DNA of 51,844 nt from Gammaproteobacteria bacterium (GTDB lineage: Bacteria > Pseudomonadota > Gammaproteobacteria > Pseudomonadales > Azotimanducaceae), in contig JAPPGK010000049.1 of assembly GCA_028821405.1 (NCBI GenBank), positions 1 to 51,844 of the forward strand. Direction: 5' to 3'. The notes below the pieces were generated by a model. The model had not been told where the DNA came from. It made no database searches and was given only the letters and a program-made list of their open reading frames with translations. Within the stretch, counting starts at the first letter, position 1. Every line of letters starts with the position of its first letter. This document shows, piece after piece, positions 6,301 through 22,651 of this stretch. The translations under genes and the position numbers were made by a program.

Positions 6301-6803
6301 CAGGCGGCGAGCGCCACCGGCGCGTCGAGGAGGAGGAATGCCGCCAGCGACCATGGCTCTACGAAATCGCCGGTCCAGAATCCGGTCGCCCTCGCGGCGG
6401 CGCCAATCGCGAGGGTCATCAACGCCAGCACCGCGGGCGCAAGCCATGCCGCGAGCGCCACTGCCGCAGTTCGGCCGACCACGAAGGACAGATTGGATGG
6501 GGGCCGGGCGGCGACGGCCGCGGCTATCCGGTCGCGGCGGTCCCTGGCCAGCGCGTCCACCGCCAACAGCACCGCCCCCGCCATGATGGCCAGCAGCGTC
6601 AGGTCGCCGAATCCATGGATCAGGAAGCGCGGCGAAACCGAGCCCGCGGTGGCCCCATACCCCGAGCGGATGCCGTGGGCGGCCGAGAAGTAGAGGAACG
6701 GCCCCAGGCCGCCCGCGACGGCGATCGCCACGACGACCCACGTCTGCACCGCCCGCCGCAGCGAGCGGAACTCGGCGGCGGCGACGGCGAACGTCTGCTT
6801 CAT
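3351..6803 (-). CDS. ABC-2 permease fused to an M1-aminopeptidase-like domain
   Basis: 1150 residues. Residues 1-290 hold about six to seven hydrophobic segments in the style of ABC-2 export permeases, starting with a typical MKQTFAVAAAEFRSLRR head. A small membrane segment near residue 275 leads into a large extracytoplasmic part of about 850 residues. The overall plan matches known 'ABC transporter permease/M1 family aminopeptidase' proteins, but the zinc motif HExxH of that family was not found when the protein was read through. The peptidase-like domain therefore looks inactive or very divergent. The matching ABC ATPase is normally the neighbour, and none is present. GC content and codon use look like the rest of the window. 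Function unknown. Confidence 0.7.
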   Translation of the reverse strand: MKQTFAVAAAEFRSLRRAVQTWVVVAIAVAGGLGPFLYFSAAHGIRSGYGATAGSVSPRFLIHGFGDLTLLAIMAGAVLLAVDALARDRRDRIAAAVAARPPSNLSFVVGRTAAVALAAWLAPAVLALMTLAIGAAARATGFWTGDFVEPWSLAAFLLLDAPVALAAWTALVVFLRVALGSAWAAAAAAFALLALQVGALFALPAWLLPVASLLPRFGAVSSDMLPEFADLDVVAQRLALLLLAGGALCLAAAALARRARRDDGAATQTVAGAALGSLGATCLALLLAQAAHERTERAGWIAAHQDRRGAAGFDIERMAAQVVIDPGRQLRLDTTLRARSEVQKDALVFRFNAGMDIAHVRAGGYTLEHRHESGLLDVRLARPLAAGEAIELSLLATGIPDPRFAYLDEALNPSSLALADSLLHTLGMEASIFESDYAALLPGVAWLPAAGSAFGAVPDFFDLSLDVDLPRGWLAAGPGRRTESPAPGSGIRFGFRPPAPVAEVAVLASNRFERRAASVAAVDVELLLHRQHMHNPRFFRAAAESMRGNFAWRFESAADSGIPYPYGSLSLVEVPARLRGFRGGRRMDSALAAPGIVMVREHGFPTARFDFASQTPPYASARGQGDEAFAETTLVPILFDYLDSDYSAGEAYAAMARSHLLFRTRAQGPGGFHLDLLLEALANRLVGDPKSHFSAHVFVGSMPSGIGARLIGRTMADTAPVHNALVDRQFRAAVATAGDMAPAGSPVRIVTDAASDAGYRRAAAMAELIHVGLGKEKTGALLADLLGRFDGRTFPMVDFLAAVRHLDAPLAETLSGQLRSQVLPGFVHSPLQVVRIADDERGLPRYLSRLRVRNDEPAPGVVRLVLWVSGEPMLIDHASNLVYLAGDEAVEIELATPSPPLFARLHTFLSRNRRQVALATPSPDSIPQSDDEPAGIRRSAWRPPLLDGLVVDDLDIGFAVRSVGAPGSVFAAAPTDAVADGAESPAEAWWNVPAGRWGRQPVARGWGKYEATVVVAAQGDGTEEAVFAAKLPTGGRWRLHYHVPSDRAAGVDRTYGRLRWAGLRQLTAFETGFRLERAGTYHMRLLAGADKFDIAFDASNAGYGWHVLGDYDLKAGMAALAVSSRRDGGDYVVADAVWWEPREATGSKGT

Positions 6804-8367: not shown

Positions 8368-8956
8368 ATGAACCGCCGCAAGCTGGTCGGGTCGGTGGTC
8401 ACGGTGGGCATCCTGTCCGGCCTGCCGGTCGCAGGCGCGACGGAACGACCCAAGACGCCTCGGGACTTCACCGGACCGTTCTATCCCCGAGGGCCGCGGA
8501 ATCGAACGAGCGATCTGATCGTCGGTGAACCTCAGGCCGACGTGCTGCAACTGGCCGGACGCGTGCTGGCACCGAACGGTAGCCCACACGCCGGTGTTCT
8601 CGTCGACATCTGGCAGGCGGATCCGAACGGTCGCTACAAACACCCTCGCGACCGCGGCCAAGATAGCCTCATGGACGAGTTCCTGTACTGGGGCGAGTCA
8701 TCGACGGACGCCGAGGGGCGCTTCCAATTCCGCACCTATGTGCTGAGCGGGCCGCTACGCTGCGCGGCCCGCTCAGCACATCCACTACAAGGTGTGGCGG
8801 GAGGGCGAGGAACTCCTGACCAGCCAGATCTACTTCGTCGAACTCGGCGGCGCCCGCGGACTTGCTCGGTCGGAAGAAGCCGCCGCGCTGCAGACCGTCG
8901 GTCTCGAACGCCTGGGCGACGAAGGTGTTAGCGCGCAACTCGAGATCGTGATCTAG
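8368..8956 (+). pseudogene. Intradiol ring-cleavage dioxygenase, frameshifted
   Basis: The first 130 codons read as an exported intradiol dioxygenase: a Tat-like head (MNRRKLVGSVV), DFTGPFYPRG, VDIWQADPNGRYKHP carrying the first iron tyrosine, then GRFQFRTYV. The frame breaks near 8755. Skipping one C there restores GPYAARPAQHIHYKVWREG, with the second tyrosine and the His-x-His ligands, and the new frame runs to TAG at 8954-8956 (about 195 aa). All four iron ligands would then be present, so the break looks recent or is a sequencing error. It coincides with a perfect inverted repeat. Such enzymes cleave catechol-like rings using Fe(III); the substrate is unknown. Confidence 0.75.
8738..8781. 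repeat. Perfect 18-bp inverted repeat at the frameshift
   Basis: Arms 8738-8755 and 8764-8781 are exact reverse complements (starting ATGTGCTGAGCGGGCCGC), with an 8-base loop. The structure lies exactly where the dioxygenase should encode its GPY and HIH iron-ligand region. After frame correction one residue (Gln) still looks extra compared with the usual RPxHIH spacing. Confidence 0.9.
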
Positions 8957-9155: not shown

Positions 9156-12100
9156 TCAGCGATGGCTCGAGTACCCGAGACGGAAGTACGCGAACCTTCC
9201 ACCGGGGATGTCGTAGACGGAAGCATCGTAGCCGTTCAGCGATGCACTCATGCTGATCGGCGGATCGCGGTCGAGGAGGTTGTTCACACCCGCCGTCAGG
9301 GTAAGGTCTCCCCCGGCGACGGCGAAGGAATAGCGGGCCTGAACGTCATGCAGCGTCGTGCTCGCCAGGTGGTTCCGGGACGCGGTGTTGTCCGCGTGGT
9401 TCGGCATGGAGCAAAGGCCCAGGTTCGTCAGGCTGTCCGGGGAACCGTCCAGGAAGTCGCTGCAGCGTTCGGTCATGGCATCGGTATAGCGGATCGTCCA
9501 CGCCGCGCCCCACCGTTCAACACCGTAGTCGATGGCAAGCGAGGCCTTCCACTGCGGTTTGCCGCGATCCGACTCGGTTCGACCCTCAAGCGAACGCGTC
9601 TCGACGACACGTCCCGCCGCGTCCTGCAAGCGCTCGGTGAACTCGGCCAGATGCGTGCCCTGCCAATGCAGCCGCCATCTCGACCCGGCGGCGAAGACCA
9701 CCCCGAAGTCCCAACCTCGGGTCTCGATCGAGCCGACGTTGAACAGGGTGTTGCGGAATCGGGCGATGCCGCCGCGTTCGTTGCGCTCGATGAGTTCGCA
9801 GAGCACGGCAACCCCGTCGCGGTAGCAGCCGTCCAGCACCGACTGGGCATCGTAGCCGGTGATGGCGTCGTCGACCTCGTGCCGATAGTGGGCCAGTTCC
9901 ACACGCAACTCGTCGATCCAGGGGTGGCCCCTTGCCCACTGGGGACTCCAGGCGACGGCCAGCGACTCGCTCGCCGACGTCTCCGGTTCAAGACGTTCGT
10001 TGCCCCCGGTGAGTACGCTGATCTGGCCACCCAACTGCGTGTAGCTGCCATCCGCCGGCACCCCGTGGGCGACACAGTTGTCGATTACGTTCCGGCCAAC
10101 GTTGGTCGCCAGGAAGTTCGCGCACGGATCGGAAATAGCCGCGTCCAAACGGGTCAGGCCGCCGAACAACTCGCCGATGTTCGGTGCTCGGAATCCCTGC
10201 GCCCAAGAGGCGCGGACCTGGAGATCCGCCGTCAACCGCCAGCGAAGCCCCGTCTTGGCGGTGGTGTCGCTGTCGAAGGTGCTGTAGTCGAAGCGGCGGA
10301 TGGCCGCGGCGACATCGATCAACTCCGCACCCGGCAAGCCCGACACCAACGGGGCTTCCAGTTCGGCGTAGAACTCGGTGACCGTGTACCCGCCCGACGT
10401 GGGTTGCGCCGGCAGTCCCGCGGTGTCCCCCGCGGCGACCACCGGATCCGGGTCGAACCGGCCGTCCTGCCGGCGCCGCTCGAATCCGGCCGCGAAATCG
10501 AGCCCTCCGGCGGGTAGCGCCGCCAGTTCCCCCGTGACGTTGGCAACGAAGCCCTTCAACGTCTGCGAGCTCCGGTCTCTTTGCACGAAGCCGATCCAAT
10601 CCAGCATGGCATCGGTGATCGTGCCGCCGCCGGCCTGACCGCCCAGAAGATTGAGCGGGATACAGCCGGCAATCCGGGCGCAATCCGCCGGCGGGCCGAG
10701 GGCCTCGAGCATTCGACGGGCGTTGTGCGCGCCATGCTTGGTCTGCTCGGCGACGTTGCGGGACCAGATCAGGCTGGCGTCCCAAGCGAGCGCCCTGGGA
10801 AAGCCCGCCCAGATTCCCTCCACGCCTACAGCCGCATAGCGGGTGGCGACGTCCTGTTCGAAGATTCGCGGGCCGCTCTCGAGTGGGCGTCGGGTAAGGA
10901 AGCCCCCCGGACCGGCGTCGAAACCGAACGGGTTGTAGGGGTTGTCGGCGTCGATCACGATCCTGTCCATCAGGCTGCCGCTCTCCGCGAGCGTTCCCGC
11001 CCAGACCGGCTCGGGTGCCGCCTGGTTGGTCGACTCCCGGCGGTTGAACAACGCCCGCAGATTGAGGCGCAACGTTTCACTCGCCTCGTGGTCCAGGCGG
11101 GCGAACACGCCGGTGCGCCTCGACGGCGTGAGCACAAGGTTGTAGGCCGCGTAGTTGAACCGGTCGGCGTTGCTCCACGGATGGTAGTCGTCGTTCGGGC
11201 CGCACGGATCCCTCGGATCGTAGGTCGGCAACCCCGCGACGCCGTCGTTCAAGGCGCAGTTGACGAAACGCCCGGTATTCGGGTCGACGAAGATGACCCG
11301 TCCCTGGGGCGTAAAGGTACTGCCATGGGTCACGCCGGTACCGGGTTTCGGCCACCGGGTCTGATCGTGGTCCGCGGCATCGACCCGCGCCTGGTCGGTA
11401 TAGGCGAAGTGCGCAGACGCACTGGTGGCATCCCAAACACGGCCGAGAGCCAGCTCGAGGTCCCTCGTCTCGCCGCCGTTCTCGTGGCCGCCGATGTGCA
11501 CGTTGGCCGTCGTGCCATCCGCCTTGCGCGTGATGATGTTGACCACGCCGGCAATGGCGTCGGAACCGTAGATCGCCGAGGCGCCGTCGCGCAGCACTTC
11601 GATGCGTTCGACCACGCTCGCGGGTATCGTGTTCAGGTCGGTGGCGCCCGACACGCCGCTCCCGGACGAACCGTTCACCCACCGCAGGCCATCCACGAGG
11701 ACCAGCACACGCTTGGAACCCAAGTGGCGGAGATCGACCTGGGACGCGCCAGCGGCGACGCCGCCGCCGTCGGCAGGAAAGCCGAAGTTTCCGCTGCTGT
11801 TGAATCGCGTGGACAGCGGCGAACCCGACACCGGCAGGCGCGCCAGCAGATCGCCGATTGAACTGAGCCCCGAGCGGCTCTTGTCTTCCTCGTCCAGGGC
11901 GAGAACCGAGTCCCGCACGGTGAGCGGATCCCGGCGGATGCGCGACCCGGTCACCACGACATCCTCGATCGGCGCGTCTCCCGCAGGAACGGACTGGGCC
12001 GAGGACGCGGGTTCATCGGTCGCGCGGGGTGCGGGTTCCGCCCCCACCGTGGCGACCCACGCAAGTACCGCCCACGCGCCGAAGCCGAAGCGACAGAGGG

Positions 12101-12158
12101 CGACGGAAGGTCTGGTAACGCGGCGCCACAACCGCACCGGCGCGTCTCGTCTCGCCAC
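9156..12158 (-). CDS. TonB-dependent outer-membrane receptor
   Basis: 1000 residues with a GTG start. The basic head and VLAWVATVGA form a signal peptide. IEDVVVTGSRI is the TonB-box/plug entry. The plug domain follows (about residues 65-190: SSIGDLLARLP, VLVLVDGLRWVNG, IEVLRDGASAIYGSDAIAGVVNIITR), then a long 22-strand-type barrel ending in FAYFRLGYSSHR with a late aromatic residue. These receptors import large or scarce ligands using proton-motive force. The ligand is unknown. The start codon lies only 15 bp after the mtrB-like stop, on the same strand, which suggests co-transcription with the cytochrome-porin pair. That makes a metal or redox-linked ligand possible, but this is inference from context. 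Confidence 0.88.
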   Translation of the reverse strand: MARRDAPVRLWRRVTRPSVALCRFGFGAWAVLAWVATVGAEPAPRATDEPASSAQSVPAGDAPIEDVVVTGSRIRRDPLTVRDSVLALDEEDKSRSGLSSIGDLLARLPVSGSPLSTRFNSSGNFGFPADGGGVAAGASQVDLRHLGSKRVLVLVDGLRWVNGSSGSGVSGATDLNTIPASVVERIEVLRDGASAIYGSDAIAGVVNIITRKADGTTANVHIGGHENGGETRDLELALGRVWDATSASAHFAYTDQARVDAADHDQTRWPKPGTGVTHGSTFTPQGRVIFVDPNTGRFVNCALNDGVAGLPTYDPRDPCGPNDDYHPWSNADRFNYAAYNLVLTPSRRTGVFARLDHEASETLRLNLRALFNRRESTNQAAPEPVWAGTLAESGSLMDRIVIDADNPYNPFGFDAGPGGFLTRRPLESGPRIFEQDVATRYAAVGVEGIWAGFPRALAWDASLIWSRNVAEQTKHGAHNARRMLEALGPPADCARIAGCIPLNLLGGQAGGGTITDAMLDWIGFVQRDRSSQTLKGFVANVTGELAALPAGGLDFAAGFERRRQDGRFDPDPVVAAGDTAGLPAQPTSGGYTVTEFYAELEAPLVSGLPGAELIDVAAAIRRFDYSTFDSDTTAKTGLRWRLTADLQVRASWAQGFRAPNIGELFGGLTRLDAAISDPCANFLATNVGRNVIDNCVAHGVPADGSYTQLGGQISVLTGGNERLEPETSASESLAVAWSPQWARGHPWIDELRVELAHYRHEVDDAITGYDAQSVLDGCYRDGVAVLCELIERNERGGIARFRNTLFNVGSIETRGWDFGVVFAAGSRWRLHWQGTHLAEFTERLQDAAGRVVETRSLEGRTESDRGKPQWKASLAIDYGVERWGAAWTIRYTDAMTERCSDFLDGSPDSLTNLGLCSMPNHADNTASRNHLASTTLHDVQARYSFAVAGGDLTLTAGVNNLLDRDPPISMSASLNGYDASVYDIPGGRFAYFRLGYSSHR

Positions 12159-12173
12159 GTTAATCAGTCGCGT

Positions 12174-14264
12174 CTACAACGATGCCTCATACGATACACC
12201 GATCATGCTGACGGCGTAATGCGGCGCGGCGTTGCCGAACGTGAGAACGTTTCGAATTGCGTCCAACGAATCGACGAGCGCCCAATCTGCGCCTCTATAT
12301 CGTTCATGCCGAACTTGCAGAACCAACGCGCTCCCTTTGCGCAACTGGTACCAAGCATGGACGTCGACCGACGAGTGGTTCGAAACCAGGTCCGGGAACG
12401 GCAGCGACTGCCCCTTCATTTCAGTAGCGTAGCGCCCCGTTCCCAGGGACCGAACGTAGTCGAGGGAAAAATGCAGCCGGCCGTCTCTGAGGGCGCCCAC
12501 GTCCAAGCGCAAACCTGCGGTGTCGACGCCGTCCGCGATCGCGTAACGCCATTCCCCCCCGGTATAGCCGGACCTGCCGAAGGTTGCCGAATCAGACTCG
12601 TGGACAAGGTAGAAGCCGCTGACGGATACGTTGTTCGACGGCGCGTAGGCGATGTCGCCACCCCTTGCGCAGGTCCGGTCGTGCTGCAGGCCGAGAACGG
12701 ACTCGGTGTAGGCATGCCGACTGCACTCGGCCCGGACTTCGACGAACGCGCCGGTATTGGGTATGTCGTAGCCGACCCGCGCTCGCCAGGTGCGCTGCTC
12801 CCGCGCGGCCTGGTGGTAGCGACGGGTCAGCGGGTTGTTGCTCGTCGTGTCCCGGAATCGTGAGGCGCCCCGTTTCGCGTCGGTGAGCGCCAGCTTCATG
12901 CGAAATCCGTGTACGCCGCGTGCGCTTAGTTCGATCCGGTGACGCCGCTCCTCGTTGGCCGCAATCTCGGCCGGTTCACGCTGAACGCGATTCGCCTCGG
13001 TGTAGACGCCAAGGTTGATCCGTGGCATCACCCGGTAGGCCACGCCGAATTCCGTCGCTGATCGCTCGACATCGAAGGCGCGGCTGGAGGTCGGACCGAT
13101 CGTCAACGCCTCGCCAAGCACGGGCATGAAGGTCCGTGCCAACGTCTGGTTGTCGCGCTCGAATCGACGGTGTCTGGCCATCAACCGCAACCGGTCGGTG
13201 GGCCGCGCGACCAGGTGCACGGCCCCGTTGAACGACCTTGCACGCCCGTCCAGACTGTTCGCCGGGAGCGGGCCCGGGGCGAGCCTCGAGTTGGTCGTAT
13301 ATCGTTCGAAGACGGTGTCCTGTCGTGCTTCGCTCCAAGTCAGCGTCGCATGGGCTGCGACCCGGGCACCAAGCGTGTTCCTCGATATCAACGTCAAGGA
13401 ACGGGCGTCGTTGTCCGGTGCCAACGCCTTCCGCCCCCGGGGAACGGCAGGATCCCGCCAGGGGGTTTGCCACGCGAGGGCTCGGTTTTGGTTGCGAAAG
13501 CGCGAGTGGCGCAACTCGGCCGCGAGCGAAAAGGAGTCACCTTCCAGGCCGGTACCGGTGGTGAATTCCTCGGTCAGGAACTCGACGGGCTTCGCCAACC
13601 CCGTCGCCCGGTAGAGAAAGTCTGCAAAGGTCTCGTCGGTGCCAGATTTCGTTTCGCGCGAATAGTCCGCCCTCAGCCACCATCTTGGATCCGGTGCCAC
13701 GGCCAGGCGCACCGTCGTTCGACGACGTACCGTGCCACGCTCGAAGCGGATGCCCTCCCCGAGTCCGGACATGCCCGCGGTGTCGAAGGCCGCCACCCAA
13801 TCGCCTGGGAGCGTCAGTGATGCGCCGCCCGTGTACGGCGTCAAACCATCCTTGGAGATGTTGCGCGGCAAATCCCGCCGTTCGAGCCCGAGCTCGGTGC
13901 GATTGCCCTTGACGACGACACCCAAGGCACGCGAGTCGAGCGCCAAACGCCGCGCATGGGCCACGGTGGTTCGGCCGTTGTCGCCACGATGGCGGTGGTT
14001 GACGCCCAAGTCCCCATGAAGGCCCGCCTCGTCCAACCCGCTGTCCCTCCCGAACCGGGCCTGCGCATCCTCTACGTGGATGCCGCCCACGGTCCAGGTC
14101 GTCTGCTTCCGGGACGCCAGCTCGAACGGGCAAAGGCGGCAGCGCCAGCGGTCCGTGTCCACCTTGGCGTAGTTGGGTTGAACAAAGCTGTCGGCGCCGG
14201 CCAAGCATGCCCCCATTCCCCAGGCGCCGGTCGCCCCCGCCGCGATGAGGGTCCGCAATTTCAT
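12174..14264 (-). CDS. mtrB: MtrB/PioB-family outer-membrane porin of a decaheme conduit
   Basis: 696 residues from ATG 14264. Signal peptide MKLRTLIAAGATGAWGMGACLAGA, then DTDRWRCRLCPFE: cysteines 42 and 45 form the N-terminal CxxC pair typical of MtrB proteins, where these cysteines are known to matter in Shewanella. The rest is a long beta-barrel (about 26 strands expected), ending in SMIGVSYEASL. MtrB forms the sheath through which the periplasmic decaheme cytochrome crosses the outer membrane. The ATG overlaps the stop of the cytochrome gene (ATGA), so the two are translationally coupled. Homologues in iron oxidisers are called MtoB or PioB; the direction of electron flow cannot be told from sequence. 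Confidence 0.88.
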   Translation of the reverse strand: MKLRTLIAAGATGAWGMGACLAGADSFVQPNYAKVDTDRWRCRLCPFELASRKQTTWTVGGIHVEDAQARFGRDSGLDEAGLHGDLGVNHRHRGDNGRTTVAHARRLALDSRALGVVVKGNRTELGLERRDLPRNISKDGLTPYTGGASLTLPGDWVAAFDTAGMSGLGEGIRFERGTVRRRTTVRLAVAPDPRWWLRADYSRETKSGTDETFADFLYRATGLAKPVEFLTEEFTTGTGLEGDSFSLAAELRHSRFRNQNRALAWQTPWRDPAVPRGRKALAPDNDARSLTLISRNTLGARVAAHATLTWSEARQDTVFERYTTNSRLAPGPLPANSLDGRARSFNGAVHLVARPTDRLRLMARHRRFERDNQTLARTFMPVLGEALTIGPTSSRAFDVERSATEFGVAYRVMPRINLGVYTEANRVQREPAEIAANEERRHRIELSARGVHGFRMKLALTDAKRGASRFRDTTSNNPLTRRYHQAAREQRTWRARVGYDIPNTGAFVEVRAECSRHAYTESVLGLQHDRTCARGGDIAYAPSNNVSVSGFYLVHESDSATFGRSGYTGGEWRYAIADGVDTAGLRLDVGALRDGRLHFSLDYVRSLGTGRYATEMKGQSLPFPDLVSNHSSVDVHAWYQLRKGSALVLQVRHERYRGADWALVDSLDAIRNVLTFGNAAPHYAVSMIGVSYEASL

Positions 14265-15244
14265 CGTCGAAACAGGTTCCCCGAGGGATGGTTGGAGCCG
14301 TGGACCTCGCCGTGGCAATTGAGGCATGCCTTGGCGAGCAGAAACTCGGAGGTCGGGCGCGGCGGCAACTGATCGGGACCGAGCCCCAGACTGCGGTGGC
14401 CCGGCGACGAGTGACACGCCTGGCAAAGCTGCGGCGGTCTGCGAACGAGCAGCGCCGGCTGGTTGGACCCGTGGGGCGAATGGCAGAGCATGCAGTCCTC
14501 CACGACCGGCGGATGCTCCCACAGGAACGGTCCCCGCATTTGTGCATGGCAAGTGAAGCACGTCTCGTTGGCGGTGGCGCGAACATTGAGCTTGTCGTTG
14601 TCCGTGCCGTGAGGATCGTGGCAGTCGCGGCAGACGATCAGACTGTCGCGCAACGGATGGGCAGACCGCTTGAGCGCATCCGCCGCCACGTCGCGGTGGC
14701 AACCCCAGCAGGTCTCGTTCTGTGCCGTCATCGTGCGTACCGCATCCGTTTCGGCGTGGATACGATGGCAGTCCGCACAGGCCATGTCCGAGCTTTCGTG
14801 GGCACTGCCCGCCCAGCGCGCCCGCTCATAGGTCTGGTGGCATTGCAGGCACAGACCGTTCTGCAACGACGCTTCGGCGTTGCCCCGCTCGCCGAAGTTC
14901 AGGATCGGCTCGCGCTCGACGCCGTCCGGGAGGATCTGCCGACCGTGATCGCCAATGGGCCCGTGGCAGGCCTCGCACTGCAGGCCGGCCGGCGGTTCGG
15001 CGCCGCCCATCGCGAATGGGGATCGATCCACGGCGGGATGGCCATGCACGGTGGCGAACACGTCCAGGGTCGGAAACGGCTCCTCTTCGTCGTGGCAACC
15101 CAGGCACGTGTCGGCGCCCCGGCGGGAGTAGTCGCCGACGGCGAGCTTGTCGAGGAGGATGTCGTCCGCCGGTTCGACGGCTGCGGTGCCCGTCGCGGCG
15201 AATAGCAGTGAATAGGCCAAGGCCCCCAGACGCCGGGCATACAC
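14261..15244 (-). CDS. mtrA: MtrA/DmsE-family decaheme c-type cytochrome
   Basis: Ten CxxCH haem sites can be counted: CLGCH, CEACH, CLQCH, CADCH, CWGCH, CRDCH, CFTCH, CMLCH, CQACH, CLNCH. With the GTG at 15244 the protein has 327 residues, close to MtrA (333), and starts with a good signal peptide (YARRLGALAYSLLFAATGTAA). TTG 15268 and GTG 15415 are in-frame alternatives; the true start is unsure. The family forms a haem wire through the MtrB porin and exchanges electrons between periplasm and cell exterior. The gene leads a leftward operon with the porin and a TonB-dependent receptor. No MtrC/OmcA-like outer decaheme and no DmsAB reductase is nearby. dmsE or mtoA would be equally fair names. 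Confidence 0.92.
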   Translation of the reverse strand: MYARRLGALAYSLLFAATGTAAVEPADDILLDKLAVGDYSRRGADTCLGCHDEEEPFPTLDVFATVHGHPAVDRSPFAMGGAEPPAGLQCEACHGPIGDHGRQILPDGVEREPILNFGERGNAEASLQNGLCLQCHQTYERARWAGSAHESSDMACADCHRIHAETDAVRTMTAQNETCWGCHRDVAADALKRSAHPLRDSLIVCRDCHDPHGTDNDKLNVRATANETCFTCHAQMRGPFLWEHPPVVEDCMLCHSPHGSNQPALLVRRPPQLCQACHSSPGHRSLGLGPDQLPPRPTSEFLLAKACLNCHGEVHGSNHPSGNLFRR

Positions 15245-15456
15245 TCCCCGGGAACACGATGTGCCCAAACGCCGAAAACACCCCCGCGACCTTCGGGATC
15301 GTGGTCTCCCCAGCCCGCGGCCGCCCAGGTATTTCACGGCCTCCCCATCTAAAGCAACGCCAGACAGACGCCGACGATGCCGCGATTGTAGCCAAGCGAC
15401 CGTTCGATGTAGCACGTCGCCACCCCCGGTGCTAATGTCCGGCGTTGGAAGGGAAC
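15245..15456. promoter_or_regulatory. Divergent intergenic control region
   Basis: About 190-210 bp separate the leftward decaheme operon from the rightward exported-cytochrome cluster, so both promoters must lie here. A possible -10 (TAATGT, 15433-15438) precedes the rightward gene, but no convincing -35 or operator was seen. The rightward gene has a good ribosome site, GGAAGGGA, just before ATG 15457. Confidence 0.4.
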
Positions 15457-18400
15457 ATGAACCGTTTCCACGAGATTCTGTCCCGCACGCTGGTAGCGAT
15501 TGCGACCGGCGGCGTGGTTTTCGTGTCCGTTGCGGGCGAGCCGGCGATTCCCGGCGAGGACGGGTCCCGGGACGAGGCCGGCCGTTGGGTTTGGCAGATT
15601 ACCCAGCCGTTTCCGCTAGCAGCCCATCGGGACTTTGTGCCGGGCGCGCACTCGATGCCGGTGCAGCCCGACGTTCACGACCGCCTGTTGGCCTCAACAC
15701 CGGGCTCACCAAACGCGGTATTGACCTGTCCCGTGCCGCCATCGCGGTCCTTCCGGGACGACTCCAAGCCGAACATTCACGCAGGCGGTTCGAAATCGCT
15801 CGCTCTTGACGTCGCGCCGGGGAAGCCGTCGTCTAGCGGCTCGCCCAACTCCCCGGCCAGCCGGCATGCGGCCGGTGTGCAGGCGAGTCCCAAGCACGGC
15901 GTCGCGGGCAGCGCCGCGACGTCGGCCGGTGCAGGGGAGACCCACGCCGTTCCCCTGTTTCCCGCCGCGTCGGACGACTTCCGCGAAGGATTCGTGCGGG
16001 TCATCAACCATTCCGCCATGGGGGGCGAGGTGCGCATCACCGCGGTCGACGACGATGGCCACGTCAAGGATCCGATCACGCTTGCCATCGAGGCCGGCAC
16101 GACGGCGCACTTCAACTCCGGCGACCTTGAGCGCGGCAATGCCGCGAAGGGGATCTCTGGCAGCACGGGGGCGGGGTTCGGCGATGGGCGCCTCGCGCTG
16201 GAAAGCGACCTTGACATCGAGGTGCTGGCGTACGTGCGAACCGCCGACGGCTTCTTGACGGCGATGCACGATGTCGTCGCGTCCGACAACGGCGCTCATC
16301 GCGTGCCGACTTTCAATCCGTCGAGCAACCACGACCAGGTCAGCCGACTGCGTATCGTGAACCCCGGAGACCAGGCGGCCCCGGTGACGATTCGTGGCAT
16401 CGATGACCTTGGCCACTCGCCTGACACCGTTGTCGAGCTCAACATCCCGCCGGGTGCCGCCCGGACACTTGACGCTCAGCTATTGGAATCCGGCGGCGAG
16501 CACGGGCCGGGACTCGGCGACGGCGCGGGCAAATGGCGGCTGATCGTGGCGTCCGGGCAGCCGATCGAAGTCATGAGCCTGCTCGAAAGCCCCACGCGCC
16601 ACTTGTCCAATCTGTCCACGACACCCGCCAAGGACGACGAAGGCGTCCATACGGTGCCGCTGTTCCCCGCGGCGGGAGGCGAACGCCAGGGTTTCGTTCG
16701 CATCATCAACCACGCCGATGCCCCTGGCGTTATCCAGATTCGCGCTTTCGACGACTCCGACTGGGACTACGGTGCGGTCACGTTGAGCCTCGACGCCAAC
16801 GCCGTCGCGCACTTCAACTCCGACGACCTCGAGACCGGCAATCCGCTAAAGGGTCTGTCCGGTGGCGTTGGTTCAGGCCAGGGAGATTGGCGTTTGGAAC
16901 TCACCGGCGACGTCGACCTCGAGGTGTTGGCCTATGTTCGGACGCAACAGGGCTTCCTTACCGCGATGCACGATATCGCGCCAAGCATCGGCGTCCGCCA
17001 CCGGGTCGCGGTCTTCAACCCCGCCAGCAACCATGACCAGGTCAGTCGACTACGCATCGTCAATGCGGCCGACCAAGCGACCGAGGTCGCGATTTCCGGC
17101 GTAGACGGCGCCGGCACGACCCCGGACAGCGAGGTCCGGCTAACCGTGCCGGGCGGCCAATCCCGGACGATCTCGGCACAGCAGCTCGAGTCGGGATCCG
17201 ATGGGATCGAAGGGCATCTAGGCGATGGGGTGGGCAAGTGGCAGCTCAACGTCCGGTCCGAACAGCCGATCATGGTCATGAGCCTGCTGTCGTCGCCCAC
17301 CGGTCACCTGACCAACCTGTCGACCGCCCCCGGCCGCGGTGCCGGCGCGACCGCCACGGAGGTGTTCGAAGCGCTGGTCGCGGCACCGGTACTGGAGGCG
17401 AAATGCGTCAACTGCCACGTCGAAGGCGGAGCATCGGGCACTACGCGGCTGGTATTCGTGTCAACCGCGAATTCGGATCACCGCGCCTTGAACCTCACGG
17501 CCATCAGGAACTTCGTGGCCACGGTTGAAGACGGCGCAGCGCTCCTCCTGGAGAAGATCCAAGGCATCGGCCACGGGGGTGGCGAACAGGTGCCAGGCGG
17601 TTCCCAGGATTTCCAGAACGTCGCCTGGTTCCTCGATCTGCTGGGTCGGGAAGCGGCGGCCGTCTCGGCATCGGCCGAGACCCTCTTTGATGTCGTCACC
17701 ATGGCCTCGCCGCGCACCGTGCTACGTCGGGCCGCGCTGCTCTTCGCGGGGAGGACACCCACGCCGGCCGAATACGATTTCGTGGAAACGGGCACCGAGA
17801 GCAACCTGCGCGAGGCGATTCGGAACCTGATGACGGGACCGCGTTTCCACGAGTTCCTGCTCAGGGCGGCCAACGACCGCTTGCTGACGGACCGGTTCGT
17901 GGCCGAGAACACCCTGGAGAATCGCGGCCACTTCTTCCATTTCGACAACAAGTACTACCGACTTCGCGGCGCCGCCGTCAACAACGGGGCGCACCGCGAA
18001 TTCAACGAGTGGCACAACGCCGTCCAGTACGGCGTCGCCCGGGCGCCGCTGGAGTTGATCGCCCACGTTGCGGAGAACGACCTTCCCTACACCGAGGTGC
18101 TCACCGCCGACTACGTCATGGCGAATCGGTTGGCGAAGGAGAGCTACACGGGCAAGGGTGCCTTGGACCATCCCGAGGATGTTCACCACTTCCGCCCCAC
18201 GCGAATCACCGACTACTACACCCACACGACGGGCTATCGCGCCAGGTTCGAGCCCAACATCGGTTTGCGAATCCTCTCGCCCGGTGACGGCAAGACGGCG
18301 ATTCCCCATGCCGGCCTCCTCAACACCTTCGTGTTCCTGAAGCGCTATCCGACCACCGCCACCAACCGCAACCGGGCTCGCGCGCGGTGGACCTACTACC

Positions 18401-20580
18401 ACTTCCTCGGGGTCGACATCGAGAACGCGGCCTCGCGAACGACCGATCCCGTCGCCCTCGCAGACAACGACAACCCGACCCTGAAGAACGCCAACTGCAC
18501 CGTTTGCCACACGGTCCTCGACCCGGCGGCGGGCGCTTTCCAGAACTACGGCGACATCGGGCTCTATCGCGACGAACCGGGAGGGCTGGACTCCCTGGAC
18601 CGGTTCTACAAGAACCCGGTCGGGCAGGAGTTCGAGATCGAGGCCGCGTCCTTCGAGGAACGCGAGACCGTCTCCGCCACGGTGCAGCTCGATGCCGACA
18701 GCCGGGTGTTCATCAACTTCACCAACGACTACTGGCAAGCGGGCACCGACATCGACCGCAACCTGCGACTCGACACCCTCGAACTTCGCGACACCGAGGG
18801 TGCTGTCGTCTTCGAGTCCGACCTCGCGGTGTTGGAGAACCAGAACTGTGGCCAGGCCGTCGCCGCCGAAGACGGCGGGAGCGAGGACCATTGGGTCATC
18901 CTGAGCGGCTGCGGGGTGCGCGTCGACGTGCACATTCCCGCCGCCGGCGCCTACGACGCCGCGGTTACGGCCTGGGCCGATCAGGCGGGCGACGAGCTGG
19001 CCAAGCTGCAGATTTCCGCGACTCCCTACCGACAGGGCGACACCTGGTACCGCGACATGCGCAGACCAGGCTTCGACGGGGAGTCTGCGCCCGAAGCCGG
19101 CAACAGCATCCAATGGCTCGCCCGGAGCATTGCCGAGGATCCGCGCTTCGCAGAGGCCACCGTGAAGTTCTGGTGGCCGGCGATCATGGGCAACGAGGTC
19201 ATCGAGCCGCCCGCGGACGAGCGGGATGTTGGCTTCGATGCCCGATTGCTGGCCGCCAGTGCTCAAGCGGCGGAAGTTCGCGCCTTGGCCGATGGTTTCC
19301 GCGACGCCTTCCACGACGGCGCCCCCTACAACCTGAAGGACCTGTTGGTGGAAATCACCCTATCCGACTGGTTCGGGGCCGACCGCGTCGAGGGCGAGCC
19401 CTCCACCATCCAGCGCGATGCGCTCGCCCACGCGGGGGGAAGCCGGCTGCTGACGCCCGAGGAACTCGCCTTCAAGACCGACACCTTGACCGGTTTCCAA
19501 TGGGGTCGGTGGGAACACCCGAGCGCGCGTCCGTTTCGCCAGCACACGAATTCCCTGGCCGATGTGGGGGCGTACCGGCTGCTCTACGGGGGCATCGACT
19601 CGAACGGCATCACCGACCGGTCGCGGGATCTGACCTCGGTCATGGCCAGCGTTGCCAGAACCCACGCCACCGAGTCAAGTTGCCCCATCGTCTTCCGCGA
19701 GTTCTACCTGTTGCCGGACGAGAACCGCCGCCTGTTCGGCGCCATGCACAAGAACCTCTCGCCGGTTGCGGAGGCAGGTGAATCGTTCTCGATCGAAGCC
19801 GGGTCCTACGACGAGCGGGAGACGCTGGTCGTGAGTGGTCACCTGGGTGCCGGAACGAACACGGCGTGGCTGTCGTTTCCCAACGACTACTACAACGAAG
19901 AGTCGGGTGCGGATCGGAATGTGCGCCTGGACGCACTCGAAGTCGTCAACGCAGGCGGCACCACAGTTCACCGCATCGAGTTCGAGGACCTCGAGGAAGG
20001 ATGTGGCTCCAGCGAAGCCCGTGACGACGCCGAGGATGCGGACCACCGTGTCCTCTGGCAGGCCTGCGAGTTGCGTATCCCCTTCGAGACCCCGTCGAGC
20101 GGGAACTACGAGGTGAAGGTCATCGCCTGGGCGGACCAAGCCGGCGGCCAATTGCCGTTCCTCGACTTCGTCGTGGAATCGAATGCCGAAACCTCCGCCG
20201 GCGCACGCGCCATCCGCAACAAGATCGTCGAGCTGTACGACAAACTGCTCGGCGTCGAGGTCAGCGCCGACTCCCAGGACGTCGAAGACACGTACCGACT
20301 CTTCGTCGATGTCTGGGAGCGTCGCCGCGACACCGGAAACAACTGGTTCTTCGACACGGCCTGCAACTGGAGTTCGGACATCCGGTACTTCGAGGGGATC
20401 GCCGACGACGTGCTCATCAGACACGAACGGGACTGGGGTAGCTACTATGGCTGGGACTGGAACCGTACGAACCAGATCCTCAACGTCGAAGCCGCCCCGT
20501 ACGACAGCGCCGCGGTCGTGCGCAGTTGGAGCGTCGTGCTCGCGTACCTGTTGATGGACTACCGGTACCTTTATCTCTGA
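15457..20580 (+). CDS. Large exported diheme protein (DUF1549/DUF1588-like core, CBM-like modules)
   Basis: 1707 residues. Signal peptide at about 1-28. Residues about 164-628 are four ~115-aa units in A-B-A-B order. A first haem site CVNCH is at 650-654. A core resembling DUF1549/DUF1553 (RRAALLFAGRTPTPAEYDFV, FHEFLLRAANDRLL) carries the second haem site CTVCH at 1014-1018, followed by LDPAAGAFQNYGDIGLYR as in DUF1588. Two modules at about 1058-1190 and 1445-1576 share ND-Y...DRNxRLDxLE and AWADQAGxxLxxL; they resemble calcium-dependent xylan-binding modules of the CBM36/60 type. The ~190-residue C-terminus is Trp/Tyr-rich. Location is probably the cell surface or exterior. Planctomycetes have related cytochrome/DUF1501 pairs, but this repeat and module set is not one I recognise. 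Confidence 0.8.
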   Translation: MNRFHEILSRTLVAIATGGVVFVSVAGEPAIPGEDGSRDEAGRWVWQITQPFPLAAHRDFVPGAHSMPVQPDVHDRLLASTPGSPNAVLTCPVPPSRSFRDDSKPNIHAGGSKSLALDVAPGKPSSSGSPNSPASRHAAGVQASPKHGVAGSAATSAGAGETHAVPLFPAASDDFREGFVRVINHSAMGGEVRITAVDDDGHVKDPITLAIEAGTTAHFNSGDLERGNAAKGISGSTGAGFGDGRLALESDLDIEVLAYVRTADGFLTAMHDVVASDNGAHRVPTFNPSSNHDQVSRLRIVNPGDQAAPVTIRGIDDLGHSPDTVVELNIPPGAARTLDAQLLESGGEHGPGLGDGAGKWRLIVASGQPIEVMSLLESPTRHLSNLSTTPAKDDEGVHTVPLFPAAGGERQGFVRIINHADAPGVIQIRAFDDSDWDYGAVTLSLDANAVAHFNSDDLETGNPLKGLSGGVGSGQGDWRLELTGDVDLEVLAYVRTQQGFLTAMHDIAPSIGVRHRVAVFNPASNHDQVSRLRIVNAADQATEVAISGVDGAGTTPDSEVRLTVPGGQSRTISAQQLESGSDGIEGHLGDGVGKWQLNVRSEQPIMVMSLLSSPTGHLTNLSTAPGRGAGATATEVFEALVAAPVLEAKCVNCHVEGGASGTTRLVFVSTANSDHRALNLTAIRNFVATVEDGAALLLEKIQGIGHGGGEQVPGGSQDFQNVAWFLDLLGREAAAVSASAETLFDVVTMASPRTVLRRAALLFAGRTPTPAEYDFVETGTESNLREAIRNLMTGPRFHEFLLRAANDRLLTDRFVAENTLENRGHFFHFDNKYYRLRGAAVNNGAHREFNEWHNAVQYGVARAPLELIAHVAENDLPYTEVLTADYVMANRLAKESYTGKGALDHPEDVHHFRPTRITDYYTHTTGYRARFEPNIGLRILSPGDGKTAIPHAGLLNTFVFLKRYPTTATNRNRARARWTYYHFLGVDIENAASRTTDPVALADNDNPTLKNANCTVCHTVLDPAAGAFQNYGDIGLYRDEPGGLDSLDRFYKNPVGQEFEIEAASFEERETVSATVQLDADSRVFINFTNDYWQAGTDIDRNLRLDTLELRDTEGAVVFESDLAVLENQNCGQAVAAEDGGSEDHWVILSGCGVRVDVHIPAAGAYDAAVTAWADQAGDELAKLQISATPYRQGDTWYRDMRRPGFDGESAPEAGNSIQWLARSIAEDPRFAEATVKFWWPAIMGNEVIEPPADERDVGFDARLLAASAQAAEVRALADGFRDAFHDGAPYNLKDLLVEITLSDWFGADRVEGEPSTIQRDALAHAGGSRLLTPEELAFKTDTLTGFQWGRWEHPSARPFRQHTNSLADVGAYRLLYGGIDSNGITDRSRDLTSVMASVARTHATESSCPIVFREFYLLPDENRRLFGAMHKNLSPVAEAGESFSIEAGSYDERETLVVSGHLGAGTNTAWLSFPNDYYNEESGADRNVRLDALEVVNAGGTTVHRIEFEDLEEGCGSSEARDDAEDADHRVLWQACELRIPFETPSSGNYEVKVIAWADQAGGQLPFLDFVVESNAETSAGARAIRNKIVELYDKLLGVEVSADSQDVEDTYRLFVDVWERRRDTGNNWFFDTACNWSSDIRYFEGIADDVLIRHERDWGSYYGWDWNRTNQILNVEAAPYDSAAVVRSWSVVLAYLLMDYRYLYL
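15946..17340 (+). repeat. Internal A-B-A-B coding repeat (two ~700-bp units)
   Basis: Within the 1707-aa protein, unit A starts H-x-VPLFPAA and contains GFVRxINH, AHFNSxDLExGN and LTAMHDI; unit B starts HRVxxFNPxSNHDQVSRLRIVN and ends EVMSLL-x-SPTxHLxNLST. A and B are themselves similar, which suggests two rounds of duplication. Approximate borders are 15946, 16297, 16649, 16999 and 17340. Confidence 0.85.
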
Positions 20581-20593
20581 GGATGCCTGGGCC

Positions 20594-21886
20594 ATGAAGC
20601 GACGAACCCTATTGAAAGGCATGCTTGGCGCGACCGGCGCCGCCTCCATGGGTTTCCGCTTGCCGCTGGCGGGGGCCGCCCACCACGAGGGCAAGCTGTA
20701 CGTATTTGTTCAGGCCAACGGTGGCTGGGATCCCACGAGCTTCTGCGACCCGAAGGCCAACGTTCCCGACGAGCCCGTCATCAACAACTGGGCGCAACGT
20801 GCGGAGATCCAAGAGGCCGGCAACATCGCCTACGCGCCCTTCGCCTACAACGAAGCGTTCTTCGAGAAGTACCACGAGCGCATCCTGGTCATCAACGGCG
20901 TCGATGCACAGACCAATTCGCACACGGTGGGCGTGGTGCACAACTGGAGTGGACGCAACTCCGAGGGCTACCCCACGGCAACCGCCCTCCTGGCCTCCCA
21001 CTACGCGCCGGACCTCTCCGTCCCCTACCTGAGCTTCGGCGGCTACTCCGAGACCGGCGGGCTGACGCGGTTCACGCGCATGAACAATCCCGATCTCCTA
21101 CGCAACATCGCAACGCCGCAGATCCCGCATTGGAACTCCGAAAGCCGGTACTTCAGCGATGCCGATTGGGCAGCCTTGGAGTCTCGCCGGACGATGGCCG
21201 CGCAGAGGCTCGCCGACCAGACCGATCTGCTGCCCACCCAAGCGCGCAACCGCGAACTCTACCGGTCGGCCTTTGCCGCCGCCGATGGCTTGGCGGCGTA
21301 CGCGGCGGCCCTTCCCCCCAACGATGAACTCGAGCAGCCGGAGCGCTACCAGGGTTCCAACAACTACTACAGCGACCTGCGCCGCCAGGCACAGCTCACG
21401 GTTCTCGCCTTCAAGACCGGCGTGGCCGTCAGCGCGGACCTTTGGCTCGGCGGCTTCGATACCCATGCCTATCACGACCGGGACCACAACTGGCTGCTCG
21501 GCAACTTGACGAACGCCGTGGACTTCCTCTGGGACTACGCCGAGGAACACGGCGTCGCCGACCGTCTGGTGGTGGTCATGGGTTCGGACTTCGGTCGAAC
21601 CAACCACTACAACGCAAAATACGGCAAGGATCACTGGCCCATCGGCAGCTATGTCATCATGGAGAAGAACCAGCCGTGGACGAACCGCGTCGTCGGCGAG
21701 ACGGATGAACGGCACTTTGCCCACCGAATCAACCCCGAAACACTCGAGCGCGATGACCAGCACGGGACGATCATCTACCCGAAACACGTCCACAAGGCCC
21801 TGCGCCGGTATCTCGGCATCGACCACACGCCCGGGGCGCTGCGGTTCCCGTTCAACAACACCGAAGACTTCGCGTTCTTCAGCTAG
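20594..21886 (+). CDS. Tat-exported DUF1501-type protein
   Basis: 430 residues starting at ATG 20594, 13 bp after the diheme gene. The head MKRRTLLKGMLGATGAASMGF is a twin-arginine signal, so the protein folds, perhaps with a cofactor, before export. The body has features of DUF1501 proteins, a group with an alkaline-phosphatase-like fold: VFVQANGGWDPTSF, NGVDAQTNSHTVG, SFGGYSETGG, LGGFDTHAYHDRDHN and VMGSDFGRTNHYNAKYGKDHWPIGS. In Planctomycetes the same two-gene arrangement (cytochrome-containing DUF1549-type plus DUF1501) is common, and its function is not settled. Here it is part of a three-gene rightward operon. Confidence 0.82.
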   Translation: MKRRTLLKGMLGATGAASMGFRLPLAGAAHHEGKLYVFVQANGGWDPTSFCDPKANVPDEPVINNWAQRAEIQEAGNIAYAPFAYNEAFFEKYHERILVINGVDAQTNSHTVGVVHNWSGRNSEGYPTATALLASHYAPDLSVPYLSFGGYSETGGLTRFTRMNNPDLLRNIATPQIPHWNSESRYFSDADWAALESRRTMAAQRLADQTDLLPTQARNRELYRSAFAAADGLAAYAAALPPNDELEQPERYQGSNNYYSDLRRQAQLTVLAFKTGVAVSADLWLGGFDTHAYHDRDHNWLLGNLTNAVDFLWDYAEEHGVADRLVVVMGSDFGRTNHYNAKYGKDHWPIGSYVIMEKNQPWTNRVVGETDERHFAHRINPETLERDDQHGTIIYPKHVHKALRRYLGIDHTPGALRFPFNNTEDFAFFS

Positions 21887-21936
21887 CTCCTTGAACGGGG
21901 CCAGTGCTTACGATCAGATTGCATTCGCGAGACGTC

Positions 21937-21960
21937 GTAGGGGCGAGGCTTGTCCTCGCC
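21937..21960. repeat. GTAGGGGC REP-like hairpin
   Basis: GTAGGGGCGAGGCTTGTCCT begins a hairpin with arms GGCGAGG (21942-21948) and CCTCGCC (21954-21960). It lies in the 153-bp gap between the DUF1501 gene and the diheme cytochrome gene, followed by more GC-rich palindromic sequence. It could attenuate transcription or stabilise the upstream mRNA. Confidence 0.6.
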
Positions 21961-22039
21961 GGCTTTGGTGGGCCCGTTTGTTCGATTGGGCCGCCGCGCG
22001 CCTGACGGGCGCGTTGGGGTCGCCGCGACGGCCTCTTGC

Positions 22040-22651
22040 ATGAGCACCCAACGTCGCGCAGGTCTGACGCTGCTCGTCGCGACGTGCCTGGCATCCGGCA
22101 GCGCCGCCGAAACGGGTGAGCAAATCGCGAAACGGCTATGCGTCGACTGCCACGGGGAGTTCGGCCGTAGCGAGATCAAGGACATTCCCTCCATCGGCGG
22201 CTTCTCGGAGTTCGCGATCGAAGATCTCCTCGACAGCTACCGGCAGCGCTTTCGCAAGGCCCGATCCATCACCCTCGAAGACGGCTCCGAGAACGACATG
22301 CAGCGGGTGGTCGACGCATTGTCGGACGCCGAAGTTCAGGCGGTGGCCCTCTACTACTCGGCGCAGGAGTGGCACCCCCACGATCAGCCGTTCGACGCCG
22401 AACTGGCCAGCCGGGGGGCGGCGGTGCACTCCCGCAAGTGCGGCAAGTGCCACCCCAAGGGCGGCAGCGTGCCGGACGCCGACCACGCACTGCTCGCCGG
22501 GCAGTGGCGTGACTACCTCGCCAGGGAGTTGGAGAACTTCACGAGCGGCAACCGGCGGATGGCCGACAAGATGAAGACGAAGTTCGACACGCTCTCCGAA
22601 TCGGACAAGGACGCCCTGCTGGAATTCTGGGTCAGCGCCGGCAACTACTGA
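22040..22651 (+). CDS. Diheme c-type cytochrome (c4/c553-like)
   Basis: 203 residues from ATG 22040. The signal peptide (MSTQRRAGLTLLVATCLASGSA) decides this start. There are two class-I-like cytochrome c halves: the first with CVDCH, GFSEFAIEDLLDSY and a likely distal methionine in NDMQRVVDALSDAEVQAVALYY; the second with CGKCH and SGNRRMADKMKTKFDTLSESDKDALLEFW. The layout matches cytochrome c4, a soluble periplasmic carrier of about 190-210 aa. Placed after the DUF1501 gene, it could shuttle electrons between the inner membrane and the decaheme conduit; this is inference. Confidence 0.87.
   Translation: MSTQRRAGLTLLVATCLASGSAAETGEQIAKRLCVDCHGEFGRSEIKDIPSIGGFSEFAIEDLLDSYRQRFRKARSITLEDGSENDMQRVVDALSDAEVQAVALYYSAQEWHPHDQPFDAELASRGAAVHSRKCGKCHPKGGSVPDADHALLAGQWRDYLARELENFTSGNRRMADKMKTKFDTLSESDKDALLEFWVSAGNY

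Follow-up and report, generated by a model that had tools for sequence, protein, structure and literature searches.

We analysed a stretch of DNA of 51,844 nucleotides (contig JAPPGK010000049.1 of assembly GCA_028821405.1, hereafter the window) from a gammaproteobacterium of the family Azotimanducaceae, order Pseudomonadales, and identified at positions 9,156 to 22,651 an MtrAB-type electron conduit next to genes for a large diheme protein, here called P4, a DUF1501 protein and a PdsA-like cytochrome (Table 1). Two gene sets diverge from a 212-bp gap, in agreement with the control region of about 200 bp described in an initial annotation of this DNA. The MtrA protein scores above the cut-off of TIGR03508 and its gene adjoins that of an MtrB/PioB barrel, the two features by which we recognised an MtrAB conduit; both families score above their cut-offs, so the conduit initially annotated on this arm was recovered. 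The mtrA and mtrB genes overlap at 14261-14264, and MtrB has the motif CRLC close to its N-terminus.

Table 1. Features of the locus, with positions in the window.
Feature	Coordinates	Strand	Evidence or remark
MtrB/PioB outer-membrane barrel	12174..14264	-	TIGR03509 275.6 bits (cut-off 240.05); PF11854 316.8 bits
MtrA/DmsE-family decaheme cytochrome	14261..15244	-	TIGR03508 268 bits (cut-off 192.2); 10 CxxCH
Divergent intergenic region	15245..15456	no strand	contains GATTGTAGCC at 15384-15393
P4, 1707-aa diheme protein, predicted exported, PSCyt3/PSD4-like, two CBM60-like modules	15457..20580	+	
P4 N-terminal repeat region	15925..17334	+	
P4 heme-1 domain	17338..17664	+	CxxCH at 17404, then HGGG
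P4 second CxxCH	18496..18510	+	inside DUF1588/PSCyt3-like part
First CBM60-like beta-sandwich of P4	18625..19020	+	best CBM60 stretch; strands in structure model
Second CBM60-like beta-sandwich of P4	19768..20178	+	strands in model; placed by repeated motif
Tat-type DUF1501 protein, candidate alkaline-phosphatase/sulfatase-like fold	20594..21886	+	PF07394 61.9 bits
PdsA-like diheme protein, candidate periplasmic shuttle	22040..22651	+	NF049874 130.5 bits, E 6.9e-38
TonB-dependent receptor	9156..12047	-	present, not a conserved part of the locus

The c4-like cytochrome that the initial annotation had suggested to be a periplasmic shuttle contains two CxxCH motifs and resembles PdsA, which the part of PMC8805035 used here presents as a characterised periplasmic carrier of Mtr systems. 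We use only the name 'PdsA-like' because its NF049874 score lies below the NCBI cut-off of 330. Its start is probably at 22040 and not, as first annotated, at 21950.

P4 contains two CxxCH motifs, matches to CBM60 (50.8 bits against a Pfam cut-off of 28.2, in two stretches predicted to bind carbohydrate) and parts that resemble DUF1588 and DUF1592, consistent with the earlier description of a diheme protein with polysaccharide-binding-like modules. PSCyt3 (DUF1588) scored 26.8 bits with the whole protein and 27.7 bits with its C-terminal part against a gathering score of 27, and PSD4 (DUF1592) 20.5 bits against 23.3. At E 0.01, PSCyt3 matches all 14 aligned P4 proteins and PSD4 11 of them. The earlier assignment to DUF1549 is a weak match (E 0.0021) and was replaced by DUF1588/PSCyt3, which fits better. 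The CxxCH and HGGG residues of the heme-1 domain are invariant in 14/14 aligned proteins, six of them encoded away from MtrAB, as are the C, C and H of the second CxxCH. The modules suggest that P4 is located outside the cell, and a type II system is a possible export route, given that GspD was found in 16/16 genomes of the genus. We also noted 30 further P4 matches in the same genome, mostly to the N-terminal repeat region and many in long open frames. Relatives of this repeat region (L002-L008) have sub-threshold similarity to the S-layer protein Slr4 and a DUF5719 match.

The DUF1501 protein scores above the Pfam cut-off of 27 and begins with MKRRTLLKG, confirming the twin-arginine (Tat) type start annotated before. 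All 18 aligned DUF1501 proteins match the family at E 0.01, and a set of D/H residues, which we take to be a metal site, is invariant in all of them. A search of solved structures by sequence gave nothing useful for P4 or DUF1501. Using a structure model of DUF1501 (predicted template modelling score 0.79), Foldseek returned sulfatases as the best PDB matches, including carrageenan and chondroitin sulfatases (best E 2.5e-4). Twelve matches had E <=0.001, one of them a phosphonate hydrolase (probabilities 0.85-0.99), at template modelling scores of only about 0.3 and root-mean-square deviations >13, so the fold likeness is weak. A sulfated polysaccharide may be the substrate of P4 and DUF1501.

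In the genus, MtrA was matched in all 16 genomes and the PdsA-like gene lies at the MtrAB locus in 15, G014 being the exception. P4 is the divergent neighbour of mtrA in eight of them (G000-G004, G006, G009 and G011). Gene maps revealed P4-DUF1501 pairs without PdsA in G012, G013, G008, G015 and others. MtrAB-PdsA is therefore the core of the genus and P4-DUF1501 a separate pair; an exception to this split is locus L128, where PdsA adjoins P4-DUF1501 and the MtrA of that genome is on a different contig. PdsA is found mostly with MtrAB, and P4-DUF1501 forms an independent pair, so the rightward genes are not the single operon originally proposed. In G008 and G007 (L091:2554-5877, L095:12008-15262), a diheme protein of 1084-1107 aa is encoded directly downstream of mtrB and is a candidate for a different outer partner; for that of G008, matches to beta-propellers were obtained, along with MauG-like and CBM4_9 matches below the threshold.

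We collected 78 P4 loci from named genomes, drawn from the best 80 of 160 confirmed matches. According to the named genome records, the nearest are from Gammaproteobacteria or Pseudomonadales metagenome-assembled genomes (MAGs), several of whose isolate prefixes presumably denote sponge-microbiome samples. A DUF1501 match accompanies P4 in 75/78 loci (in L162 the match is limited to a 30-aa fragment located on the opposite side), and 12 loci have MtrA in the flank that was fetched (L105-L111, L116, L118, L132, L133 and L143). Two further genera of the family, represented by G022 (L118), L116 and G346 (L133), have P4-DUF1501 divergent from pdsA in a gene row pdsA-mtrA-mtrB; in G346, 0.6-1.2 kb separate the pair from pdsA, and the start of P4 is ambiguous. 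The initial interpretation thus holds in part: the position of P4-DUF1501 beside MtrAB in several separate lineages stands, and the unity of the rightward operon does not. P4 copies were also found in MAGs named Entotheonella, Defluviicoccus, Bryobacterales, Terriglobia, Chloroflexi and Latescibacterota. The presence of P4-DUF1501 in MAGs of several phyla (L112, L113, L123 and L139-L161; P4 identity 48-58% over the best segment) suggests lateral transfer or misbinning, which are not distinguishable here.

Phylogenetic analyses of DUF1501 used 74 rows at first, and 66 rows for the approximately unbiased (AU) test, with eight long or distant rows dropped. In the 74-row tree, the 13 rows whose flank includes MtrA require five changes, at least four of them forced by starred branches. 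In the 66-row tree, the 11 directly divergent rows need three changes and a single clade is rejected (p-AU 8e-7, for a group defined after the first tree was seen). The pairs divergent from MtrAB/PdsA form three separate groups of the tree. Among 18 genomes that have both systems, with 30 P4 loci, 0.13 placements within 10 kb are expected by chance and two separate ones were seen (p ~0.008, ignoring relatedness). Finally, in a count of neighbours over 42 lineages that was not keyed to MtrAB, MtrA, MtrB and PdsA each appeared in five, a short-chain dehydrogenase in six, and an ABC transporter and ApbE in five each. We discounted the dehydrogenase and the transporter because both belong to large generic families; this is a matter of judgement.

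The same pair accompanies a second electron-transfer cluster. In L167 (the culturable Motiliproteus sp. MSK22-1) and L080 (G016), P4-DUF1501 is followed on one strand by genes for a thioredoxin-like protein, DUF4266, DUF3570 and ApbE. A Paraglaciecola MAG (L180) has the same DUF3570/ApbE order on one strand with one extra open reading frame (ORF) between. The DUF3570 cluster also follows P4-DUF1501 on one strand in L220 (G023), with no DUF4266 match, and in L221 (G052), with no ApbE match. In L172 and L173 the cluster is upstream of P4-DUF1501 and shares its strand; in L162 and L225 it is divergent from the pair. It corresponds to the DUF3570-DUF4266-thioredoxin-ApbE clusters treated in PMC8238504, where, in the part consulted, ApbE flavinylates DUF3570 at two [ST]GA[ST] motifs and the electron-transfer function of DUF3570 is called uncertain; the main text of that paper has no mention of DUF1501, DUF1588, DUF1592 or PSCyt. 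All 22 DUF3570 proteins examined contain at least two such motifs, and their mostly aromatic C-termini suggest an outer-membrane barrel.

DUF3570 was found in none of the 16 genus genomes and in 19/58 relatives. Among these relatives, MtrA or DUF3570 is present in 6/6 genera with P4 and in 16/37 other genera (p 0.012, ignoring relatedness). We then queried 42 P4 genomes, hand-picked from the 78 loci and including nine in which MtrA or DUF3570 had previously been seen in the flank, with a joined MtrA and DUF3570 query at E 1e-20. MtrA alone was detected in 12 genomes, DUF3570 alone in 20, both in one and neither in nine, one of which has a DUF3570 match at 6e-18. Six of the MtrA matches, from Bryobacterales or Terriglobia MAGs, are weak, at 38-40% identity. 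The genomes with only MtrA and those with only DUF3570 are largely different taxa.

A heme-1-type domain (CxxCH...HGGG) is also present in proteins other than P4. Beside MtrAB it was found in G007, G008 (in a protein with a PPC domain), G424 and G425 (in ORFs of 787-798 aa), and beside ApbE in L227, L228, L231, L232 and L237. Three of the ApbE-adjacent proteins were scanned, and TSP3 repeats were above the cut-off in two and below it in one. We counted the domain with a regular expression, excluding ORFs with more than three CxxCH (MtrA itself matched otherwise); the expression misses L116, L220 and L221, three loci at which tblastn detects P4. A distance of at most 8 kb between this domain and MtrA was seen in 10/16 genus genomes and in 15/28 loci in all, and between it and DUF3570 in 12/22 loci. 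None of the 22 further MtrB loci examined in the order has the domain; some of these are on short contigs. As the 28 MtrA and 22 DUF3570 loci were partly chosen for having P4 in the genome, 10/16 and 0/22 are the cleaner pair of counts. The distribution suggests that the heme-1 domain acts as the plug by which contact with the conduit is made.

We propose that MtrAB-PdsA wires a secreted, carbohydrate-bound redox pair, P4-DUF1501, to the cell, a plausible reading to which we give slightly less than an even chance. MtrAB and the PdsA-like shuttle would form the electrical connection between the cell and the secreted proteins. P4 would be anchored outside by its carbohydrate-binding and surface-type repeat modules, and its heme-1 domain would take the role of MtrC, passing electrons to or from MtrA where the MtrB barrel opens to the outside. 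The second heme, in the PSCyt3-like part, is assumed to be catalytic, and DUF1501, as a sulfatase-superfamily-like protein, may act on the substrate of P4, probably a sulfated polysaccharide. Electrons from the oxidized substrate would most likely flow from P4 through MtrA and PdsA to cytochrome c oxidase. The gene content, the adjacency in several lineages, the second partner cluster and the missing MtrC, NapC and MenA were observed; the export, docking, catalysis, substrate and direction of the P4 system are inferred.

More tentatively, P4-DUF1501 could be a secreted redox head for two unrelated outer-envelope sockets, the heme-based MtrAB-PdsA and the flavin-based DUF3570/DUF4266/thioredoxin-like/ApbE cluster, with CxxCH...HGGG as the common plug. 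The heme socket occurs in this Pseudomonadales lineage and its kin, and the DUF3570 cluster in other Gammaproteobacteria.

Several observations weigh against the proposed wiring of the pair to MtrAB. MtrA is missing from the fetched flank of 66/78 P4 loci, many of them on short contigs; the initial annotation had named wide occurrence of the rightward operon without MtrAB, together with a lack of co-regulation, as a sign against its own reading, and the first of these two was seen for P4-DUF1501. Eight of the 16 MtrAB loci of the genus have no P4 (G005, G007, G008, G010 and G012-G015, G010 on a short contig), and the nine P4 genomes that gave neither match have no MtrA or DUF3570 at the threshold used. 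The heme residues of P4 are equally invariant in copies away from MtrAB. The changes on the DUF1501 tree may be losses, as gain and loss are indistinguishable on the tree; we favour separate gains because the gene order differs. The core of P4 has no confident fold in the structure model, and a fold search with the model of its C-terminal part (predicted local distance difference test 61.6) plausibly matched only the beta-sandwich parts and was uninformative on catalysis. In addition, the portion of PMC5615132 cited here predicts PSCyt proteins of Verrucomicrobia to be periplasmic or cytoplasmic.

Alternatively, MtrAB-PdsA may function alone, for example in electron uptake or disposal as PioAB/MtoAB do, and P4-DUF1501 may be an unrelated exported pair that is adjacent by accident. 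The MtrAB loci without P4 and the mostly solitary occurrence of P4-DUF1501 fit this explanation, as does the fact that sister genomes are not independent. The occurrence of mtrA or pdsA as divergent neighbour in separate parts of the DUF1501 tree, the excess of close placements over chance and the second electron-transfer cluster beside the same pair argue against it, and we regard accidental adjacency as rather improbable.

The remaining counterpoints concern the direction of electron flow. MtrC/OmcA (TIGR03507) was above the cut-off in 0/16 genus genomes, as had been noted for this locus. The one weak OmcA match of the genome (18.7 bits) lies in an 806-aa frame with eight CxxCH, TPR-like by the PrsT model (L216:7392-9809). 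NapC/CymA (PF03264) was detected in 1/16 genus genomes (G015) and not in the genome studied here, which also has no NrfD (PF03916). MenA (TIGR00751), the only quinone gene searched, was found in 0/16, and a control matched 9/14 genomes. Menaquinol-driven metal reduction is thus unlikely in this genus, because NapC/CymA is missing from 15/16 genomes and MenA from all 16. Three matches to the COX1 family were obtained in the genome; one contains an inner stop, and the best of the three resembles aa3 CtaD most closely, at 553.3 bits against an NCBI cut-off of 670.75. The lack of MtrC, NapC and MenA is in keeping with an import of electrons like that of the MtrC-less conduits of iron oxidisers, and we consider import more probable than export. 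Against this, G015 of the genus and G035 encode a NapC/CymA-like tetraheme protein beside the PdsA-like gene and MtrAB (L102 and L097), with no P4 there, and G027, from the same family, encodes MtrC together with MtrAB but lacks NapC, so a missing NapC alone cannot exclude an MtrC-type system. The thioredoxin-like protein of the DUF3570 operons likewise suggests outward flow.

These counterexamples bear on the reading of the first annotation, a complete outward extracellular respiration in which P4, in place of MtrC, would be the terminal reductase of minerals or humics. PdsA and MtrAB belong to known outward systems in the account given in part of PMC8805035, and NapC at the locus in G015 and G035, together with MtrCAB without NapC in G027, also agrees with that reading. 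The genus-wide lack of MtrC and MenA and the near-complete lack of NapC argue against it, as does a P4 with only two hemes and carbohydrate-binding-type modules. Among 23 fetched MtrB loci of the order, MtrC was matched in 10, all of which also have a NapC match, and three have NapC without MtrC. We consider outward respiration through P4 very improbable, and Shewanella-type metal respiration was dropped as the main interpretation. Neither the missing CymA/NapC and MenA, which disfavour a metal reducer of the Shewanella type, nor the second partner of the pair (DUF3570/ApbE) was noted in the initial annotation.

The same wiring could also be reversed, with electrons passing from bc1 or ubiquinol through PdsA and MtrA to P4 and feeding an extracellular, O2- or peroxide-dependent attack on polysaccharides. 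MtrAB conduits can run both ways, and the second partner cluster includes genes for a thioredoxin-like protein and for DUF4266, both in favour of such a flow. We nevertheless hold it to be rather unlikely, in view of the lack of NapC (15/16) and MenA (16/16) in the genus and of NrfD in the genome itself.

The arrangement resembles DmsEFAB of Shewanella, in which an MtrAB-like pair is dedicated to one outer-surface enzyme; that enzyme, the DmsAB molybdoenzyme, is not known to be related to P4 or DUF1501. To our knowledge, PioAB has no MtrC. The MtoAB system of ES-1 is likewise described as lacking it in the section of PMC8805035 concerned. The PioAB/MtoAB uptake conduits, as far as covered by the cited part of PMC13390432, also comprise MtrAB homologs and small periplasmic cytochromes, whereas the conduit studied here is linked to an exported, enzyme-like pair and iron oxidation is not indicated. 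MtrCAB-PdsA-CymA, as outlined in part of PMC8805035, shares MtrA, MtrB and a PdsA-like shuttle in one locus; here there is no MtrC, no CymA/NapC in most of the genus and no MenA, and a PSCyt-like diheme protein and DUF1501 adjoin the conduit. Planctomycete-type PSCyt/PSD proteins also have PSCyt3/PSD4-like parts, carbohydrate-binding modules and a conserved neighbour, but those are predicted to be periplasmic or cytoplasmic and have no Mtr link in the section of PMC5615132 that treats them. A better description of the system than the initial one is that MtrAB-PdsA would wire a separate, secreted redox pair, found in other bacteria with a flavinylation cluster; in kind, it is a porin-cytochrome conduit whose outer partner would be non-homologous.

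In a search of open-access literature (subscription papers and preprints were outside its scope), we found no paper joining DUF1501/PSCyt with MtrAB, PdsA or DUF3570. A pair with links to a heme conduit as well as to a flavinylation cluster connects, in a testable way, questions about PSCyt-type cytochromes and DUF3570, and its arrangement in uncultured gammaproteobacteria hints at the role of an unexplained cytochrome family. Such cytochromes are predicted to work on the external side of the outer membrane and to exchange electrons with it. The link also suggests that MtrAB may serve beyond mineral respiration, by connecting the respiratory chain with an extracellular enzyme that acts on polysaccharides. 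If P4-DUF1501 does fit two sockets, Planctomycete-type cytochromes may function in the wired extracellular oxidation of (sulfated) polysaccharides.

In the divergent control region, GATTGTAGCC is common to six of eight aligned intergenic sequences (the window and L105-L109), is altered in L111 and is absent from L110. A scan of the gap for consensus sigma-70 promoters returned none. The TonB-dependent receptor, which lies within the interval initially annotated, was rejected as a core part for its patchy presence across L105-L111: relatives with 38-83% identity occur in L105 and L107-L109, L106 and L111 have no match, and the L110 contig stops short of the position. A small intradiol-dioxygenase-like gene (8368-8931; PF00775, E 4.1e-13) adjoins the receptor, and several relatives have a similar-sized ORF at its position.

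A chimeric contig is unlikely because the flanking GST and MDMPI genes are syntenic in all or most of L085-L089. The source genome comprises 4.77 Mb in 122 contigs with a completeness of 97.6%. The remainder of the window encodes housekeeping genes, including gyrA, gatB and mreB. On the minus strand at 3351-6803, we also identified a 1150-aa protein with a sub-threshold Golvesin C-terminal match.

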